Made by a program: the position numbers and the translations under genes | The notes under the pieces: model-generated | The model's database searches: none | Told to the model about the DNA's origin: nothing | Seen by the model: only the letters and a program-made list of their open reading frames with translations | In this document: positions 9,735-56,386 of the stretch, piece after piece | Layout of the letters: each line of letters opens with the position of its first letter | Numbering within the stretch: position 1 is the first letter of the stretch | From: Bacillota bacterium | Lineage (GTDB): Bacteria > Bacillota > Clostridia > UBA1381 > UMGS1253 | Assembly (NCBI GenBank): GCA_022706785.1 | Contig: JAKJBW010000010.1 | Location: 1-64,000 of the forward strand | Length of the DNA: 64,000 nt | Reading direction: 5' to 3'

Positions 9735-9833
9735 AGTATGTGTAGCACATAGACAGGCCGCATGCGCGCGGCTGCTTTAGTTTTGTGTTTTCCCATGCAG
9801 TTTTATACTGCGCCAGCATACAAGGGCAACTTA

Positions 9834-9989
9834 TACTATTCCGCGCCCAAAACAGCAATATCTACCACGCCTTTTTTGCCCACAGCTGCGTTGTCATCCT
9901 TGCCTTGCGTCAGCAAGGCTGCGTCCTCCGCCTTGCTGTGAACAAAAAATCCAGCGGTATCCAATTCCTGTTTTAAACGCGAAACAGTA
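9834..9989 (+). mobile_element. Miniature inverted-repeat element M1, copy 1 (in the glyA leader)
   Basis: 156 bp with ends TACTATTCCGCG...CGCGAAACAGTA, flanked on both sides by TTA. It is the same length and sequence type as the copy at 34503-34658, which is flanked by TAA. A 3-bp TNA target duplication is typical of IS5-family (IS1031-group) transposition. The interior holds the shared core: CTGCGTTGTCATCC, a CTTGC/GCAAG hairpin, GCGTCCTCCGCCTTGC. No coding capacity. It lies within the glyA 5' untranslated leader. Confidence 0.85.
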
Positions 9990-10015
9990 TTAAAATCGGG
10001 GAGGGGTATTTGAGA

Positions 10016-12489: not shown

Positions 12490-12656
12490 TAGACCTGCTC
12501 ACTAACCCCAACAAGGCGGCAAAACCGGTCTTTTCCCCGCCGGGCGATACAGCCAAAACCCGCCAATACACAAAGTATTGGCAGAACCTGCCTGCACCAC
12601 CCGGCGGGAAAAAATCCTCAGTTATCCGCTTTCGACCGGGTTAGCGGACAGGTCCA
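12490..12656. mobile_element. Miniature inverted-repeat element M4, copy 1
   Basis: About 167 bp between larC and the PfkB kinase. Ends TAGACCTGCTCACTAACCCC and GGGTTAGCGGACAGGTCCA are inverted. The interior shares long blocks with the copy at 41596: AAAACCGGTCTTTTCCCCGC, CCGGGCGATACAGCC, AATACACAAAGTATTGGC, CTGCCTGCACCACCCGGCGG. It is non-coding. Flanking TA (left) and CA (right) suggest a decayed TA duplication. Confidence 0.83.
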
Positions 12657-14346: not shown

Positions 14347-14757
14347 TTACTCGTCTTTCGGATCACCCGGCATATCCGGCGCTATTTCCACCTCGACCTC
14401 GGGCAGCTTTTCGCCGCAGCGGTTGCAGTAGACCGCATCGATATCGTTTTCGGTCCCGCATACCGGGCAGCGGCGCAGGTTGCGCAGGCGGGAAAGCTGA
14501 TTTTTTTTTGATACAATCTCATCGCTTAAGGCTTCTATTTCCTTGCACTTTTCCTGCACATCGCCAGGGTCGCCCGTGCCTGTCTTATAGGCGTCGTATA
14601 CCAGCCGGCCCGTTTCCTTGATCAGGTCGTCAAGCTTTGACTCATCCCCGGCAATAGCGAGCTTCACTTTGGTGATCTCCACCACGTCGGTAGACTTTTG
14701 CACAACGGCCTTGGTGGTCTTTTCAACATTGGCAAGAATTTTTTCGATAATGTCCAT
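14347..14757 (-). CDS. Zinc-ribbon protein with N-terminal coiled coil
   Basis: 136 aa. The ATG at 14757 has GGAGGG 8 nt upstream; a TTG two codons earlier is unlikely. Residues ~1-95 are charged and helical with heptad-like spacing (KLDDLIKETGRLVYDAYKTG, then EIEALSDEIVSKKNQL). The C-terminal C-x2-C ... C-x2-C (CPVCGTENDIDAVYCNRC) is a rubredoxin-like zinc ribbon, followed by an acidic tail. Such proteins are common and poorly characterised in Clostridia. No enzymatic motif. It is convergent to the kinase operon. Confidence 0.75.
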   Translation of the reverse strand: MDIIEKILANVEKTTKAVVQKSTDVVEITKVKLAIAGDESKLDDLIKETGRLVYDAYKTGTGDPGDVQEKCKEIEALSDEIVSKKNQLSRLRNLRRCPVCGTENDIDAVYCNRCGEKLPEVEVEIAPDMPGDPKDE

Positions 14758-14804
14758 TTTCAAAACCCTCCTTTATACAGCATCTGTGTTTTCATATGTA
14801 TATA

Positions 14805-30088: not shown

Positions 30089-30103
30089 TCGAATTGTATC
30101 CTA

Positions 30104-30255
30104 GAGTGTGTTTTGAAGCCGGCAGAGTGCAACAAAGTGAGGAATTCTTTCGTGCTGCAAGGCGGAAGGCGGCGCGAATATTTTGTGTATTTAAGCCGCT
30201 GGCAACACAGCGGCATGGAAAAATAACCGGTTTTTGGCGGTTTCAAAACACGCTC
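30104..30255 (-). mobile_element. Miniature inverted-repeat element M3
   Basis: About 152 bp with ends GAGTGTGTTTTGAAGCC and GGTTTCAAAACACGCTC. On the minus strand the core reads CCGCTGTGTTGCC, CGGCTTAAATACACAAAATA, TTCGCGCCGCCTTCCGCC, which aligns with the core of elements M5 and M6. I could not see a target duplication. It lies just upstream of dnaG. Confidence 0.75.
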
Positions 30256-30295
30256 CGGTATGGTGTTTGAAGCGCTTGTTTAAGGAGAGTTCGCC

Positions 30296-33199: not shown

Positions 33200-33262
33200 T
33201 GACGATAGGAAATTGCCCCCGTTTTGGCGCAATCTGCCGGGTTGCAAAAAAAGTTGCCTATA

Positions 33263-33418
33263 TAGTCGATCCACTTCAAAAGGGTCTGAAGATTTGTGAG
33301 AATTTTTTCCGCCAGGCAAGGCGGAGGACGACGGCAGGCTGACGCCTGCCTAGGACGACAACGCAGCATGGTGGAAAAAAGGCCTCAAAAACCAAACTGT
33401 TTTAAAGTGGATCGACTA
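33263..33418 (-). mobile_element. Miniature inverted-repeat element M2, copy 2 (inverted)
   Basis: 156 bp, ends TAGTCGATCCACTTCAAAA and TTTTAAAGTGGATCGACTA, with TA on both sides. The core is in the opposite orientation to the other copies: GGCAAGGCGGAGGACGACGG, a GGCAGGC/GCCTGCC hairpin, AGGACGACAACGCAGCATGG. Confidence 0.9.
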
Positions 33419-33487
33419 TAAAGCCTGCCCATGCAGGCATAATTTATTTTAAGGCGCTTTTTTATTTTGCGGAGCAAAACAGAAAGC

Positions 33488-34435: not shown

Positions 34436-34502
34436 AACAGGCGGGCTGTGTTTCTGCGCCCGCGTACCGACTGTTTTGCTTTTGTCCGGGCAGTGCGGCT
34501 AA

Positions 34503-34658
34503 TACTGTTTCGCGCCCAAAACAGGACTATCTGCCGTGTCTTTTTTGCCCACAGCTTTGTTGTCGTCCTTGCCTTGCGCCAGCAAGGCTGCGTCCTTCGC
34601 CGCGCTGTGCACAAAAAATCCAACGACATTTTATTCCTATTTTGAACGCGAAATAGTA
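34503..34658 (+). mobile_element. Miniature inverted-repeat element M1, copy 2
   Basis: 156 bp, ends TACTGTTTCGCGCCCAAAAC and GAACGCGAAATAGTA, flanked by TAA on both sides. About 80-85% identical to the copy at 9834. The core has TTTGTTGTCGTCCTTGCCTT, GCCAGCAAGGCTGCGTCCTT. It lies 27 bp before the amidotransferase start. Confidence 0.87.
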
Positions 34659-34685
34659 TAAAAACTGACCATTAAGGAGAAGGCA

Positions 34686-37790: not shown

Positions 37791-37952
37791 AGGGCGTATT
37801 TTCAAGCAGTCAAAACGCCTTAAATCGGCTGTTTTTCCGCTATACTTTGCCTGCGGAAACGTATACACACAAAGTATTTGCGCTTGTGTGCGCCGCGCCT
37901 GGCGAAAAAACATCACGCTTTTGTGCATTCCGCCTATTTGAAAAGATGCCCT
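37791..37952 (+). mobile_element. Miniature inverted-repeat element M6
   Basis: 162 bp with imperfect ends AGGGCGTATTTTCAA and TTGAAAAGATGCCCT. Interior TTTTTCCGCTATACTTTGCC, CACACAAAGTATTTGCGC and GCGCCTGGCGAAAAAACATC align with element M5. Its right end overlaps the repressor stop codon (37951-37953), so insertion may have trimmed that C-terminus. Confidence 0.72.
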
Positions 37953-40914: not shown

Positions 40915-41221
40915 GCGAAATGCAATGCTCGACGAGCAGATGAGTTTATGCTGGGATTGCGCCAGGGGGGCGTGTGAGTGTGTGTGGATGGCGGTGTGCG
41001 CGCCTGTGCCCGGCTGGTCGGCGGCCGAAACTGTAGTGGATGGGGAGGGCAGCTACAGGGTGCGCGCATGCCCCGGCTTTGCGGCGCATCCCAGGGCTGC
41101 CGGCATGGCTAAACGCGTCTGTCCTGTGTGCCAGACAGCTTATGCGCCAAGGTCGGTGGTGCAGGTGTACTGCAGCAGGGCATGTGCGGCGCACCGAACA
41201 GTTATAGCCGATCCACTTTAA
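40904..41221 (+). CDS. Cysteine-rich prophage protein, 3' end replaced by a miniature element
   Basis: 105 aa as it stands. ATG after GGGGGAG, overlapping the replication gene by 11 bp. Cysteine motifs CWDCARGACEC (~16-26) and CPVCQTAYAPRSVVQVYC (~73-90) point to a zinc finger. Element M2 begins at 41205 after the AAHRT codons; the final residues VIADPL and the TAA stop are encoded by the element's TIR. The original C-terminus is lost. Family not recognised. Confidence 0.62.
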   Translation: MRFERNAMLDEQMSLCWDCARGACECVWMAVCAPVPGWSAAETVVDGEGSYRVRACPGFAAHPRAAGMAKRVCPVCQTAYAPRSVVQVYCSRACAAHRTVIADPL

Positions 41222-41336
41222 AACAGTCTGGTTTTTGGGGCCTTTTTTCCGCCATGCTGCGCTGCCGTCGTCCTCCGCCTTGCCTGGCGGAAAAAATTCT
41301 CGCAAAGCTTCAGACCCTTTTGAAGCGGATCAACTA
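41205..41336 (+). mobile_element. Miniature inverted-repeat element M2, copy 3 (internally deleted)
   Basis: 132 bp; ends TAGCCGATCCACTTTAAAA and TTTTGAAGCGGATCAACTA, flanked by TA. It lacks the 24-bp GGCGGGC/GCCCGCC hairpin segment of the full copies, leaving CTGCGCTGCCGTCGTCCTCC. It interrupts a prophage gene. Confidence 0.88.
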
Positions 41337-41358
41337 TAACCCGGCAAAGGATGCGCCC

Positions 41359-41595: not shown

Positions 41596-41763
41596 TTAGA
41601 CCTGTCCGCTAACCCCGGCACGGCGGCAAAACCGGTCTTTTCCCCGCCGGGCGATACAGCCGGAACCAGCCAATACACGAAGTATTGGCGGAACCTGCCT
41701 GCACCACCCGGCGGAAAAAAATCCTCAATTATCCGCTCACGCCCGGGTTAGCGGACAGGTCTA
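41596..41763. mobile_element. Miniature inverted-repeat element M4, copy 2
   Basis: 168 bp; ends TAGACCTGTCCGCTAACCCC and GGGTTAGCGGACAGGTCTA are inverted. Interior as in the copy at 12490, including AATACACGAAGTATTGGC. The flanks show TA on both sides and a further TTCAT direct repeat at 41591-41595 and 41764-41768, which would suggest a longer duplication if the TIR starts at TAGACC. Confidence 0.88.
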
Positions 41764-42232: not shown

Positions 42233-42667
42233 ATGGACTGGAAAAACGCGGCGATAGAGGATTTGAAAAGGTTTGGCGCGCAAAAGGCAAGTCTTGACAA
42301 CATTTTGGCGCGCATACAGATTTTGCAGGACAGATACCAATCGGTGCGCGCTTCGGCGGTCCGGGATGTGCCGGTACGCGGCGGCGGAAAGCTTGAGGAT
42401 GCCATGCTTGACAATATTGTGGAGCGGGAGCGGCTGGCGTTAAATTATGAGGCCGCCCGGCGCATGGTTGAGCTTGTGGCGTGCGGGCTTGGCGGGCTTT
42501 CCGCGGCCCAGCGGCGTGTGCTGGAGGTGTTCTACACAGGGCAGTATAAAAACGGTATGGGCCTGCTGACAGAAGAGCTGGGCTATTCCGACCGCCAGAT
42601 ATACCGGATGCGGGATGATGCGCTGTATCTGTTCACCGTTTTGATGTACGGTGTGACCGAGTACTGA
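42233..42667 (+). CDS. Phage late-gene regulator, ArpU/DUF1492-like (sigma region 4-type helix-turn-helix)
   Basis: 144 aa; ATG after GGGAGGGCTGGGG. Residues ~1-65 are a coiled coil with ARIQILQDRYQSVRAS; residues ~88-135 form a region-4-like helix-turn-helix (LSAAQRRVLEVFY, LTEELGYSDRQIYRMRDDAL). This layout matches small phage activators at the end of early regions that switch on late genes. Here no late genes follow; repeats begin at once. Confidence 0.75.
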   Translation: MDWKNAAIEDLKRFGAQKASLDNILARIQILQDRYQSVRASAVRDVPVRGGGKLEDAMLDNIVERERLALNYEAARRMVELVACGLGGLSAAQRRVLEVFYTGQYKNGMGLLTEELGYSDRQIYRMRDDALYLFTVLMYGVTEY

Positions 42668-42740
42668 AAGGCGCCGGGCAGGCAAGGCTGGTTTTTACAT
42701 GCCAATGTTGAACGCTGTGATATTTCGCCGGGGTCCGGTA

Positions 42741-42882
42741 AATACATGAAAACTTTTTGCGCGGCAAAAAGCTAAAGTTTTGGTCAAACTTTTTTAAAAG
42801 TTTGTGGGGCTTTCAGGGGCGACGCCCACAAATCGCCGTCCGCAGACGGCGAAATCTTAATCGCCTGAGAGCTTTTTTCCCA
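42741..42882 (+). repeat. Degenerate class A-like repeat with GCCGTCCGCAGACGGC palindrome
   Basis: CTAAAGTTTTGGTCAAACTT, AAAAGTTTGTGGGGC and GGGGCGACGCCC correspond to the start of class A repeats. After that comes ATCGCCGTCCGCAGACGGCG, which recurs in inverted order at 56329-56346. No coding potential. Confidence 0.65.
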
Positions 42883-43201
42883 GGGTGTGGGCTCGAATAG
42901 GCGAAGCGCACAAAAGTGAGAAGTTTTTCCGCCATGCTTTGTTGTCGAAAGCTTATAGTCGATCCACTTCAAAACAGTCTGGTCTTTGAGGCCTTTTTTC
43001 CATCATGCTGCGTTGTCGTCCTAGGCGGGCGTCAGCCCGCCGTTGTCCTCCGTCTTGCCTGGCGGAAAAATTTCTCGCAAATCTTCAGACCCTTTTGAAG
43101 TGGATCGACTATAAATACACAAAGTATTCGCGCTTTCTTCCGCCTCGCCTGGCGAAAAAACTTCTCACTTTTGTGCGCTTCGCCTATTCGAGCCCACACC
43201 C
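42883..43201. mobile_element. Miniature inverted-repeat element M5, split by an M2 insertion
   Basis: The outer 46 bp are perfect inverted repeats (42883-42928 and 43156-43201), starting GGGTGTGGGCTCGAATAGGC. Without the inserted M2 copy plus one TA the element would be 161 bp. Its interior, TGCTTTGTTGTCGAAAGCTT joined to AAATACACAAAGTATTCGCG, matches the uninterrupted core of element M3. So M5 was present before M2 arrived. Confidence 0.9.
42956..43111 (+). mobile_element. Miniature inverted-repeat element M2, copy 4 (nested in M5)
   Basis: 156 bp; ends TAGTCGATCCACTTCAAAA and TTTTGAAGTGGATCGACTA, flanked by TA on both sides. Core with GGCGGGCGTCAGCCCGCC hairpin and GTTGTCCTCCGTCTTGCC. It lies in the middle of M5. 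Confidence 0.92.
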
Positions 43202-43205
43202 TTGT

Positions 43206-43240
43206 TACTTTCTTTTTGCGATAGAAAAAGAAAGTAAGGT
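43206..43240. repeat. Inverted repeat shared with the frr-pyrH gap
   Basis: TTACTTTCTTTTT-GCGATAG-AAAAAGAAAGTAA. The same sequence, inverted and slightly changed, lies at 56262-56296. Confidence 0.65.
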
Positions 43241-43288
43241 CTTGTTTTTCCTCTCATACGCCAGCCGTGGCCCGTCCGCACGGCTGTA

Positions 43289-43317
43289 TTGACTTTGTCT
43301 CGCAAACAGAGTAAAAT
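43289..43317 (+). promoter_or_regulatory. Promoter of the polysaccharide deacetylase gene
   Basis: TTGACT (43289-43294) and TAAAAT (43312-43317), 17 bp spacing; 35 bp before the start codon. Confidence 0.7.
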
Positions 43318-43351
43318 ATTCACAAAAAAGATATGATACAAGGATGATACC

Positions 43352-44197
43352 ATGAAACTGAAAAAGACGATCGTGATATGCATTTGCGCCGCTTTGGCGC
43401 TGCTGGCCGCTGCCGCGGCCCTGATTTCGGTTAAGCCCCAAGCCTATTATTTTGGCCGGGGTGCAATAGAAAAGATAGGCGACAAGCTGGAAAAACGCGT
43501 GCCGGTGCTGCTGTATCACCATCTGTATGCGCCGGAGCAGCAAGCCGTATATGGCAATAACCCTATGGCGCTGCCGGTGGGCGTGTTTGCCGAGCAGATG
43601 AAGCTCCTGGCGGATAACGGCTATCAGACCATCACCGCAGATGAGCTGTACCGGTTTTTGACCGACGGTGCGCCTTTACCAAAAAAATGTGTGATGGTCA
43701 CATTTGACGACGGTTATGAGAGCAATTGCGTGTACGCATACCCTGTTTTAAAGCAATACGGCTTTAAGGCCGTTATATTTGCCGAAACCTCAAAAATCAT
43801 ATGGGAGGACTGCGCCTTTGACCCTGCCGGCCTGCAGCGGCTGCGGCAAAAGTCTATGGCCGCCACCGGGGACGTTTTTACGTTCGCCAGCCATTCGCAC
43901 GCCATGCATTGGCAGGACGAGGGCGGCAATCCTGTCCTTACCACAAAGCCTGCGGACGAGGTATTAAAGGATATGGAAACCAGCAGGGATGTCTTAGGAA
44001 CGGACATTTACGCCTATCCTTACGGGGCATATAACGGCACGGTGATAGACCTGCTTGGGCAGGCAGGCTATAAAATGAGTTTTTTAAACAAGGCCGGCCG
44101 TGTGACAAAGCGCACGCACCCGTTTAAAATACCGCGCTATACCATTTATCAGAACAACGCCACAGCGCGGTTTAAAAATACACTGGGGCTGAAATAG
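43352..44197 (+). CDS. Membrane-anchored polysaccharide deacetylase (CE4)
   Basis: 281 aa; ATG after AAGGATGATACC (weak SD). An N-terminal lysine-led hydrophobic helix (residues ~4-25) anchors it outside the cell. NodB motifs: VPVLLYHHL, TFDDGYESN (metal and catalytic Asp), FASHSHAMHW (the two metal histidines) and YAYPYGAYN. Such enzymes remove acetyl groups from peptidoglycan or other surface GlcNAc polymers; in spore-formers some act on the cortex. The substrate is not determined by sequence. Own promoter; DUF421 gene follows 139 bp later. Confidence 0.9.
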   Translation: MKLKKTIVICICAALALLAAAAALISVKPQAYYFGRGAIEKIGDKLEKRVPVLLYHHLYAPEQQAVYGNNPMALPVGVFAEQMKLLADNGYQTITADELYRFLTDGAPLPKKCVMVTFDDGYESNCVYAYPVLKQYGFKAVIFAETSKIIWEDCAFDPAGLQRLRQKSMAATGDVFTFASHSHAMHWQDEGGNPVLTTKPADEVLKDMETSRDVLGTDIYAYPYGAYNGTVIDLLGQAGYKMSFLNKAGRVTKRTHPFKIPRYTIYQNNATARFKNTLGLK

Positions 44198-44267: not shown

Positions 44268-44320
44268 TAATATTAGGGTGCTTTGACTATTCGAAGGCAC
44301 ACCCTAACCAATATGTCTGT
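44268..44320 (+). promoter_or_regulatory. Long stem-loop upstream of the DUF421 gene
   Basis: AGAC-TAATATTAGGGTG pairs with CACCCTAACCAATATGTCT, leaving CTTTGACTATTCGAAGG in the loop. The SD (CGGAGG) begins just after it. It may terminate the deacetylase transcript or control the next gene. Confidence 0.5.
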
Positions 44321-45411: not shown

Positions 45412-45470
45412 TTTTTTTTGAAACTCAGGAATTACGCCATTTTGGCGTAATTCCTGAGTTTCAAAAAAAA
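45412..45470. terminator. 28-bp perfect hairpin after the DUF421/DUF4363 pair
   Basis: Arms 45412-45439 and 45443-45470 are fully complementary, around a TTT loop. The core is GAAACTCAGGAATTACGCCA, bounded by T8 and A8 tracts. It is able to terminate from both sides (polC converges). The stem is far longer than needed, and AGGAAATTACGCC recurs nearby at 45533. Confidence 0.8.
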
Positions 45471-49628: not shown

Positions 49629-49688
49629 ACTTGTAGTCTCCTTTGAAAAAGTATGACAGCCCCTAAAGCCGGGCCGCCCGTAAAGCCT

Positions 49689-49864
49689 TTTTGCGAAGCA
49701 AAAGTTTAAAGTTTTAGTCGATTTTTTTCAAAAAATCGCGGGGTTTGGGGCAGCGCCCCAAGGTTTTAGGGTTTTAAACAGCGTTTCGGGAGCGCAGGAA
49801 GGGGAGCGCGGTGACGCCGCGCGTGGGGAAACCCTCGCCGGGGGTTTCCCCTTATATTTTTTTT
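49689..49864 (+). repeat. Repeat class A, copy 3 (upstream of polC)
   Basis: AAAGTTTTAGTCGATTTTTT, GCGGGGTTTGGGGCAGCGCC, AGCGCAGGAAGGGG, a GCGCGG...CCGCGC mini-stem, then the hairpin GGGGAAACCC/GGGTTTCCCC with CTTATATTTTTTTT (49825-49864), which is a terminator in the plus direction. It lies antisense to the 5' side of polC. Confidence 0.85.
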
Positions 49865-49950
49865 GTGAAGCCGACGCTGTGCGGACAGTTTAGGGGTAAG
49901 GCCAGCCCCGGCCCGGCGCTCGTCAGCGCCGCTTTTTGCCATGCAGAAGC

Positions 49951-50118
49951 TGCGGGGAAACCCCCGGCGAGGGTTTCCCCAGGGCGGCAAAGTGCTTGCC
50001 AGACGTTTTAGCGTACCCCTTCCTGCGCTTTTGGAGGCGTTTAAAGACTTAAAACCTTGGGGCGCCGCCCCAAACCCCGCAAGCTTTTAAAAAAGCTTGA
50101 GCAAAACTTTGGCCTTTT
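49951..50118 (-). repeat. Repeat class A, copy 4 (inverted, first unit of a tandem)
   Basis: From GGGGAAACCCCCGGCGAGGG to GCTTGAGCAAAACTTT on the plus strand; the class A order is reversed. It is nearly identical to the unit at 50147 over more than 170 bp, giving a direct repeat of about 197-198 bp period. Confidence 0.85.
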
Positions 50119-50146
50119 GCTGCGCAAAAGATGCAAGGCCGCAAAA

Positions 50147-50329
50147 GCTGTGGGGAAACCCCCGGCGAGGGTTTCCCCAGGGCGGCAAAGTTATTGCCAG
50201 ACGTTTTAGCGTACCCCTTCCTGCGCTTTTGGAGGCGTTTAAAGACTTAAAACCTTGGGGCGCCGCCCCAAACCCCGCAAGCTTTTGAAAAAGCTTGAGC
50301 AAAACTTTGGCCTTTTGCTGCGCAAAAGG
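50147..50329 (-). repeat. Repeat class A, copy 5 (inverted, second unit of the tandem)
   Basis: Same blocks as copy 4, with only scattered differences (GTGCTTGCC to GTTATTGCC; TTAAAAAAG to TTGAAAAAG). In the ispG reading direction both copies lie downstream of its stop, so their hairpin could end ispG transcripts. Confidence 0.85.
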
Positions 50330-50376
50330 AGCCGGGCACGATGGCGAAACTGCCGCCAGACTACCCGCGCAGGTGC

Positions 50377-50393
50377 CAGCGGGCGCTGCCCGC
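50377..50393. repeat. CAGCGGGCGCTGCCCGC hairpin, copy downstream of ispG
   Basis: Identical 17-mer, embedded in CTACCCGCGCAGGTGC upstream; a related context lies at 45586 and 56436. 39 bp from the ispG stop. Confidence 0.65.
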
Positions 50394-50431
50394 TTGCTTC
50401 GCAAAAAGGCTTTACGCCCGCAACTGTAGCA

Positions 50432-56126: not shown

Positions 56127-56261
56127 GTTAATACCTCCTCAAATAAAATGTATTATTTTCCACCATACTATTATACCGCTATTATCTGGTGTTTAACAAG
56201 TAGCAAATTGATTTCTGGCAAAATAAATAAAAAACTTACCTTCCTTGAAATGAATAAAAAC

Positions 56262-56350
56262 CTTACTTTCTTTATTCTATCGCAAAAAGAAAGTAACAAA
56301 GAAAAAAGCTCTTATACGTTTAAGATTTCGCCGTCCGCGGACGGCGATTT
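56262..56350. repeat. Repeat block in the frr-pyrH gap shared with 42826-43240
   Basis: CTTACTTTCTTTATTCTATC with the inverted AAAAAGAAAGTAAC, followed by AAAAAAGCTCTTATACG and the palindrome CGCCGTCCGCGGACGGCG (56329-56346). Its parts appear in inverse order beside element M5 at 42834-42878 and 43206. Confidence 0.65.
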
Positions 56351-56386
56351 AGGGGCGCTGCTGCTAAACATGCACAGACTTTTGGC

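Follow-up and report, generated by a model that had tools for sequence, protein, structure and literature searches.

The window analysed here, a stretch of 64,000 nucleotides from contig C44, one of 52 in a genome of 2.03 Mb that is 90.7% complete (the sole representative of its genus among the genomes compared), contains a three-level nest, in which the repeat M2 lies within M5 and M5 lies within M6. As judged by comparison of their sequences, M2 and M5, which have a shared core and different ends, are sister families of one superfamily of ~160-bp MITE-like elements. The best overall explanation of the results, in which we have considerable confidence, is that the three levels are non-autonomous palindromic elements nested in one another, with M2 and M5 drawn from this one shared-core superfamily. 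The nest is intergenic, with one gene ending at 42667 and the next starting at 43352. Taken whole as single-stranded DNA, its folding exceeds that of shuffled sequence by 16 standard deviations. Its parts are as follows.

42740-42881, plus strand: left part of M6, the outermost host repeat (a hairpin repeat with 33 matches in its own genome)
42882-43202, plus strand: M5 (42883-43201 without the outer A/T), ends AGGGTGTGGG..CCCACACCCT, split centrally by M2
42882-42955, plus strand: left half of M5, with the target TA (42954-42955) as its last two bases; homologous to the M5 copies that are uninterrupted
42883-42928, plus strand: M5 left arm, whose 46 bp are the exact reverse complement of the right arm, a state private to the window copy
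42956-43111, plus strand: M2, 156 bp, TAGTCGATCCAC..GTGGATCGACTA (TAGTCG..CGACTA), inserted at TA (42954-43113 with the flanking TA copies)
42990-43077, plus strand: shared core inside M2 (core model R1, 55.9 bits, E 2e-16)
43112-43202, plus strand: second copy of the TA (43112-43113) with the M5 right half, in which the right half of M5's own core is 43112-43166
43203-43243, plus strand: right part of M6, hairpin TTACTTTCTTTTTGCGATAGAAAAAGAAAGTAA

An earlier note on this DNA had placed M2 plus one TA in the centre of M5, with M5 the older element and the TA duplicated on insertion of M2, and both the arrangement and the order of events are borne out. The duplicated TA is present on both sides of M2, and removal in silico of M2 with one TA from M5 gives GAAAGCTTAAATACACAAAGTATTCGCGC. 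There are nine M5 copies in the genome, including the split copy of the window, and the predicted single-TA junction, AAGCTTAAATACACAAAGTATT(C/T)GCGC, is exact in six of the eight that are uninterrupted (C3:1867, C16:76952, C24:21666, C34:15315, C35:81338 and C40:3168). The other two (C20:2800 and the window copy listed below), which are older, differ at the junction by substitutions only and have no insert. The contrary outcome, i.e. uninterrupted M5 copies that lack the predicted junction, was sought in the same genome and none was seen. The six intact copies thus prove the nesting of M2 in M5, the order of events and the TA duplication. One named record that also carries the junction (ADurb.Bin193, L063, MWCQ01000011) is identical to contig C24 and so is not independent of it.

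37791-37952, plus strand: uninterrupted, diverged M5 copy, 83% identical to the M5 at C40
28036-28195, plus strand: M2 copy
33261-33420, minus strand: M2 copy
41203-41338, plus strand: short M2 copy of 136 bp that has lost the inner hairpin

A shared core with differing ends

M2 (156-160 bp, with arms that match at 26/28 positions) and M5 (162 bp without its insert) align colinearly over their inner ~92 bp. At least eight families in the genome, i.e. M2, M5, M3, M7, M8, M9, MB and MA, have this ~92-bp core and unrelated terminal repeats (for M7 TACTGATTTCAATTT, for M8 TACTAATTTAAAA, for M9 GACTTCTTTCGAAACTG, for MB GACCTGTCCGCTAACC and for MA TACTRTTYCGCG / TACTGTTTCGCGCC), and a further end type, M10, is present at C40:16129. 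The elements are ~154-167 bp long across the families, a few deletion forms excepted. M2, M3 and M5 had been treated at the outset as separate repeats, which they are not, since they belong to one superfamily with a common core. M3 had also been proposed as the preserved empty site of the M2 insertion; the string CGGCTTAAATACACAAAATATTCGCGC is indeed present there, on the minus strand, but M3 is not an M5 with an empty site and is instead a sister element that has diverged from M5. Other family members in the window are:

30103-30256, minus strand: M3, which has the M5 core and is a diverged sister element
12491-12654, plus strand: MB element, ends GACCTGTCCGCTAACC, same core
41598-41761, plus strand: MB element, TA at both sides
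9833-9990, plus strand: MA element, ends TACTRTTYCGCG, same core, TTA duplicated
34502-34659, plus strand: MA element, TAA duplicated

With the split M5 taken as a single copy, the sequence-only core model R1 scores 11 cores in the window, and it scores at least 45 in the genome. With leave-one-family-out profiles, the core of each left-out family outscores every one of its dinucleotide shuffles (up to 1000), MA being the weakest (15.6 and 18.1 bits versus best shuffles of 9.5 and 16.1). Pairwise z values for the core are 4-11 in all pairs but one (MB-MA, 2.6). Over the 28 outermost bases most values fall at 0-2, the partial exceptions being M2-MA, M7-MA, M7-M8, M8-M9, M9-MB and the right end of M5-MA.

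Slow divergence of all the families from a single ancestral element, with ends that evolve faster alongside diverging transposases and with no exchange of ends, appears about as likely as not. The near-constant length of the elements (~158-170 bp everywhere) favours divergence over exchange, some end types are graded (the TACTRRTT set), and MB-like ends recur together with an MB-like core in another family, in genome G098; against this, the coexistence of eight unrelated end types and two duplication lengths in one 2-Mb genome, with the core still recognisable, favours exchange.

The core is found well beyond this genome. When 391 genomes drawn from the class, which belongs to the Firmicutes, were searched, the own genome among them, R1 matches at E<=5e-4 were present in 29 of them (28 of the 390 others), from 20 genera, with several genomes having ten core copies scored. 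The copies extracted from other genomes are mostly ~160 bp with inverted ends, and include new end types: GGAACAG (G214), ATACTAATCCCC (G231, G399, G270), CTAGTGGTCTG (G356) and GAGCCTGTTT (G034). A stretch of 159 bp at 364-522 of L108 (G095:C11) has M2-like ends, TAGTCAAACCACC..GTGGTACGACTA, and may be a distant M2 relative. Plasmid and phage collections contained no relatives, the only match, in Vescimonas, being 45 bp long at E=0.1; scanning of viral contigs for five end sequences gave three lone hits, which are chance matches lacking a second end.

The alignment of 19 sequences (A2) reveals a core structure in which a stem of 15 bp is combined with an inner hairpin of 5 bp, the latter being AATACACAAAGTATT or a GC-rich substitute, with near-invariant unpaired motifs between the stems, GTTGTCGTC and CCTCCGCCTTG, that form an internal loop. 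The A2 structure was set from complementary diagonals, i.e. from the same sequences in which covariation was then counted, with slid controls and the restriction to two-sided changes as safeguards; on this basis there are 72 two-sided changes versus 23.5 +/- 3.4 in shuffled alignments and at most 18 when slid. RNAalifold gave no pairs on the first core alignment, covariation being seen only with the broader A2. The covarying stems and conserved unpaired motifs could suggest a structured RNA (a riboswitch, small RNA or terminator) captured by different MITEs, but this is improbable: only two G.T (G.U) cells occur among ~313 paired cells, set against the 72 two-sided changes, which argues for a constraint or copying process at the level of DNA rather than RNA; Rfam gave no match above gathering score in 42600-43500; and the copies lie in both orientations, with the terminal inverted repeats at constant distance on both sides.

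With respect to the superfamily as a whole, we tentatively propose, at somewhat less than even chances, that it consists of class-wide mobile DNA palindromes, of which the conserved unit is the inner hairpin core, kept at the DNA level with its two invariant unpaired motifs, that the ends are interchangeable, and that within a single genome this core is moved by several transposase systems (TA and TNA) unrelated to one another. If so, the core would be the selected part, e.g. as a hairpin bound by a host factor or as a cis-enhancer of transposition. Prokaryotic MITEs are classed by their ends, whereas here the core is conserved across genera and both the ends and the target duplication vary; surveys based on ends would therefore overlook the superfamily, since its members would be assigned to many families with no apparent relation. 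The shared core also offers a direct test of whether the interior of a MITE is under selection.

History of the nest

The outer level of the nest, M5 within M6, is an addition to the earlier note. Uninterrupted M6 copies are present at C6:14542, C15:8538, C16:28972 (C16a), C30:80142 and 56257-56357 of the window, with one more in genome G095. The M5-free M6 reads ..GAGCTTTTTTCTTTGTTACTTTC.. at the first five of these, one of them with a single substitution. At C3 and at a second C16 locus (C16b), M5 occupies the identical position in M6 and is without M2. The M5 copies of the window, C3 and C16 form one clade (support 0.995), within which identity is 91-96% (leaving out the copied left arm described below), versus 72-85% to other M5 copies; the association of M5 with M6 thus most likely has a single origin, after which the composite was dispersed as one unit and is now seen at three places or more, M2 having entered only its window copy. 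No clean target duplication of M5 was found at its M6 site. M6 itself is an array of hairpins, some of which are also found singly; its last hairpin may bear a likeness to proteobacterial palindromes.

The perfect 46-bp inverted ends described for M5 in the earlier note are a true feature of the window copy (47 bp with the outer A/T), but not of M5 in general, since arm-to-arm agreement is only 30-39/46 in the eight other copies. All eight, including the sisters at C3 and C16, have in common a distinct left arm (..AAACGCCCTAAAGTGGCTG..). By contrast, the left arm of the window copy matches the C3 right arm at 45/46 positions and the C3 left arm at only 34/46, and therefore has been replaced by a copy of the right arm; it matches the C16 right arm at 44/46, and the bases just inside it match C3 normally (28/30). 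The right-arm copy that overwrote the left arm is what gave the window M5 its perfect ends. An ancestral state with perfect 46-bp ends, from which the other M5 copies decayed, is very unlikely: perfect terminal inverted repeats are frequent in young elements, but it would leave unexplained the one distinct left arm of all eight other copies and the agreement of the window left arm with the right arms of C3 and C16. We likewise rejected the perfect ends as a sign of a young element, as the arms were secondarily copied.

Template switching between the arms of inverted repeats is a known cause of arm homogenisation (PMC8604942, PMC8794818). It evens out imperfect arms in a single event, as in the window left arm, although in the present case the tract is 46 bp long and forms the termini of a mobile element, and template switching is a mechanism rather than a family. 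The window M5 provides a clean and datable case of arm-to-arm copying that turned imperfect ends into perfect ones, and cautions that perfection of the ends is an unsafe measure of the youth of an element.

The 13 intact M2 and nine M5 copies are dispersed over many contigs of the genome, and the closest relative of the nested M2 lies on C13 (154/160). The reverse order, in which M5 arose around M2 and the uninterrupted M5 copies were left by excision from an ancestral M2-bearing form, is hardly tenable, for although precise excision leaving one TA would yield an identical empty sequence, M2 is in only one of nine M5 copies, the six uninterrupted copies with a common junction are at unrelated places and span the M5 tree, and M2 is also at 12 further unrelated sites.

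Target duplications and the search for a transposase

Among the families with TAGTCG or G.. ends, TA is present on both sides of all 13 intact M2 copies, both M9 copies, 3/7 MB copies and 3/9 M5 copies, and most of the remaining MB and M5 copies keep TA at one side. The TACT-ended families (M7, M8, MA and M10) have a TNA duplication in 14 of 17 rows, in which one M7 locus was entered from two assemblies. TNA duplication was found in 0/32 of the TAGTCG/G.. set and TA duplication in 1/17 of the TACT-ended set. Target duplication thus tracks the ends and not the core, and, since both sets have the same core, two integration chemistries act on same-core elements. In the IS5 family, TA is the target of the IS427 group and TNA that of the IS1031 group, which fits the two sets observed here.

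With respect to an autonomous partner, neither paired M2 ends 0.2-3 kb apart nor pairs of the M5 end pattern at IS distance were found in the 90.7% complete own genome, and the complete genome G214 has no paired ends of its own end type at IS distance. The elements are thus short (<500 bp), have terminal inverted repeats and target duplications, and are dispersed in multiple copies, as MITEs are, but ends in common with an autonomous mover were found neither in the own genome nor in G214, so that they are orphan MITE-like elements at most. Ends-only remnants of internal deletion, without a core, also occur, at C20:24229-24272 (44 bp), at G214:C1:1155561-1155619 (59 bp) and in the window:

44275-44306, plus strand: internal-deletion remnant of M5, ~32 bp, both ends, no core

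The only two DDE_Tnp_1 genes in the own genome are both broken. These IS5-like copies, at 14520-14774 and 16684-16941 of C3, lie at CTAG sites and have ends TAGATCGTGTCGTCAAT / TAGATCGTGTCGTCAATAG, which have only a loose likeness to the M5 ends. Derivation from IS630/Tc1-mariner appears unlikely; M2 and M9 have the TA duplication, but no DDE_3 (PF13358) or IS630 transposase gene was found in the own genome, and the TNA of the sister families does not fit. A REP/REPIN origin also appears unlikely, as target duplications are present, contrary to RAYT-type movement.

Because no autonomous partner was found, we infer that a DDE transposase would have mobilised the elements in trans; the type of transposase and the role given to the core below have the same standing. 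In the history that we favour, M5 lodged in M6 and the M6-M5 composite then came to occupy three or more places; in the window copy the M5 right arm was copied over the left, giving the 46-bp perfect ends, and, after or before this, M2 inserted at the single TA in the M5 centre, duplicating it. The elements would have moved by a cut-and-paste route, served in trans by DDE transposases with TA or TNA specificity that are now lost or located elsewhere, with the terminal repeats having diverged or been exchanged such that different DDE transposases could act on them. The palindrome may be kept at the DNA level at least partly via template switching between arms, and the core most likely for a hairpin that would promote transposition or lessen the cost of insertion.

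Known elements and genomic setting

ERIC elements are palindromic, ~127 bp long and inserted at TA and have no known partner transposase. The superfamily resembles ERIC in its palindromic form, its insertion at TA and the lack of a partner transposase, but is from another host group and has one core with many ends, whereas ERIC is one conserved sequence; the two are set apart here by description. Like derivatives of IS427 (TA) and IS1031 (TNA), the elements have TA or TNA duplications and ends of the type GRNNNTGTCC, but no intact element with matching ends was found in the own genome, and the core is not IS sequence. REP/REPIN elements with RAYT transposases (PMC3116915) are likewise dispersed intergenic palindromic units, apparently with no linked transposase. 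The elements here have long terminal inverted repeats and TA/TNA duplications, which REPINs are not known to make.

In form the elements are like prokaryotic MITEs such as Chunjie and QMITE (review PMC10969869), which also stay below 500 bp, end in inverted repeats, duplicate their target, occur in many copies between genes, leave deletion remnants and have no internal transposase. Known MITEs have been described one family at a time, each by its common ends, whereas here the core is common across families, genera and the class, the ends differ and no partner was found; neither nesting nor sharing of internal sequence is mentioned in the passages of the review searched. A full-text search of the open-access literature found no published description of the shared core, and the superfamily is apparently undescribed so far.

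Some stretches are identical across assemblies. A 3,091-bp stretch of the ADurb.Bin193 record (L063, 864-3954) is 100% identical to C24, the two assemblies otherwise having few repeats in common, and the M7 locus at C43:14707 and G095:C18:44744 likewise has identical flanks. Such stretches may reflect either cross-binning of metagenome contigs or very recent transfer.

The contig of the window makes up 3.4% of the genome and has 8 of the 45 core copies scored (binomial P about 1e-4), the cluster spanning 9833-43202. A large mosaic of inverted and direct repeats at 49687-50408 (91-bp arms and a 188-bp direct repeat at 97%) is related to parts of M6. At 45412-45470 there is a perfect hairpin with 28-bp arms, a 3-base loop and T and A runs at its ends, which is a possible candidate for a two-way terminator.
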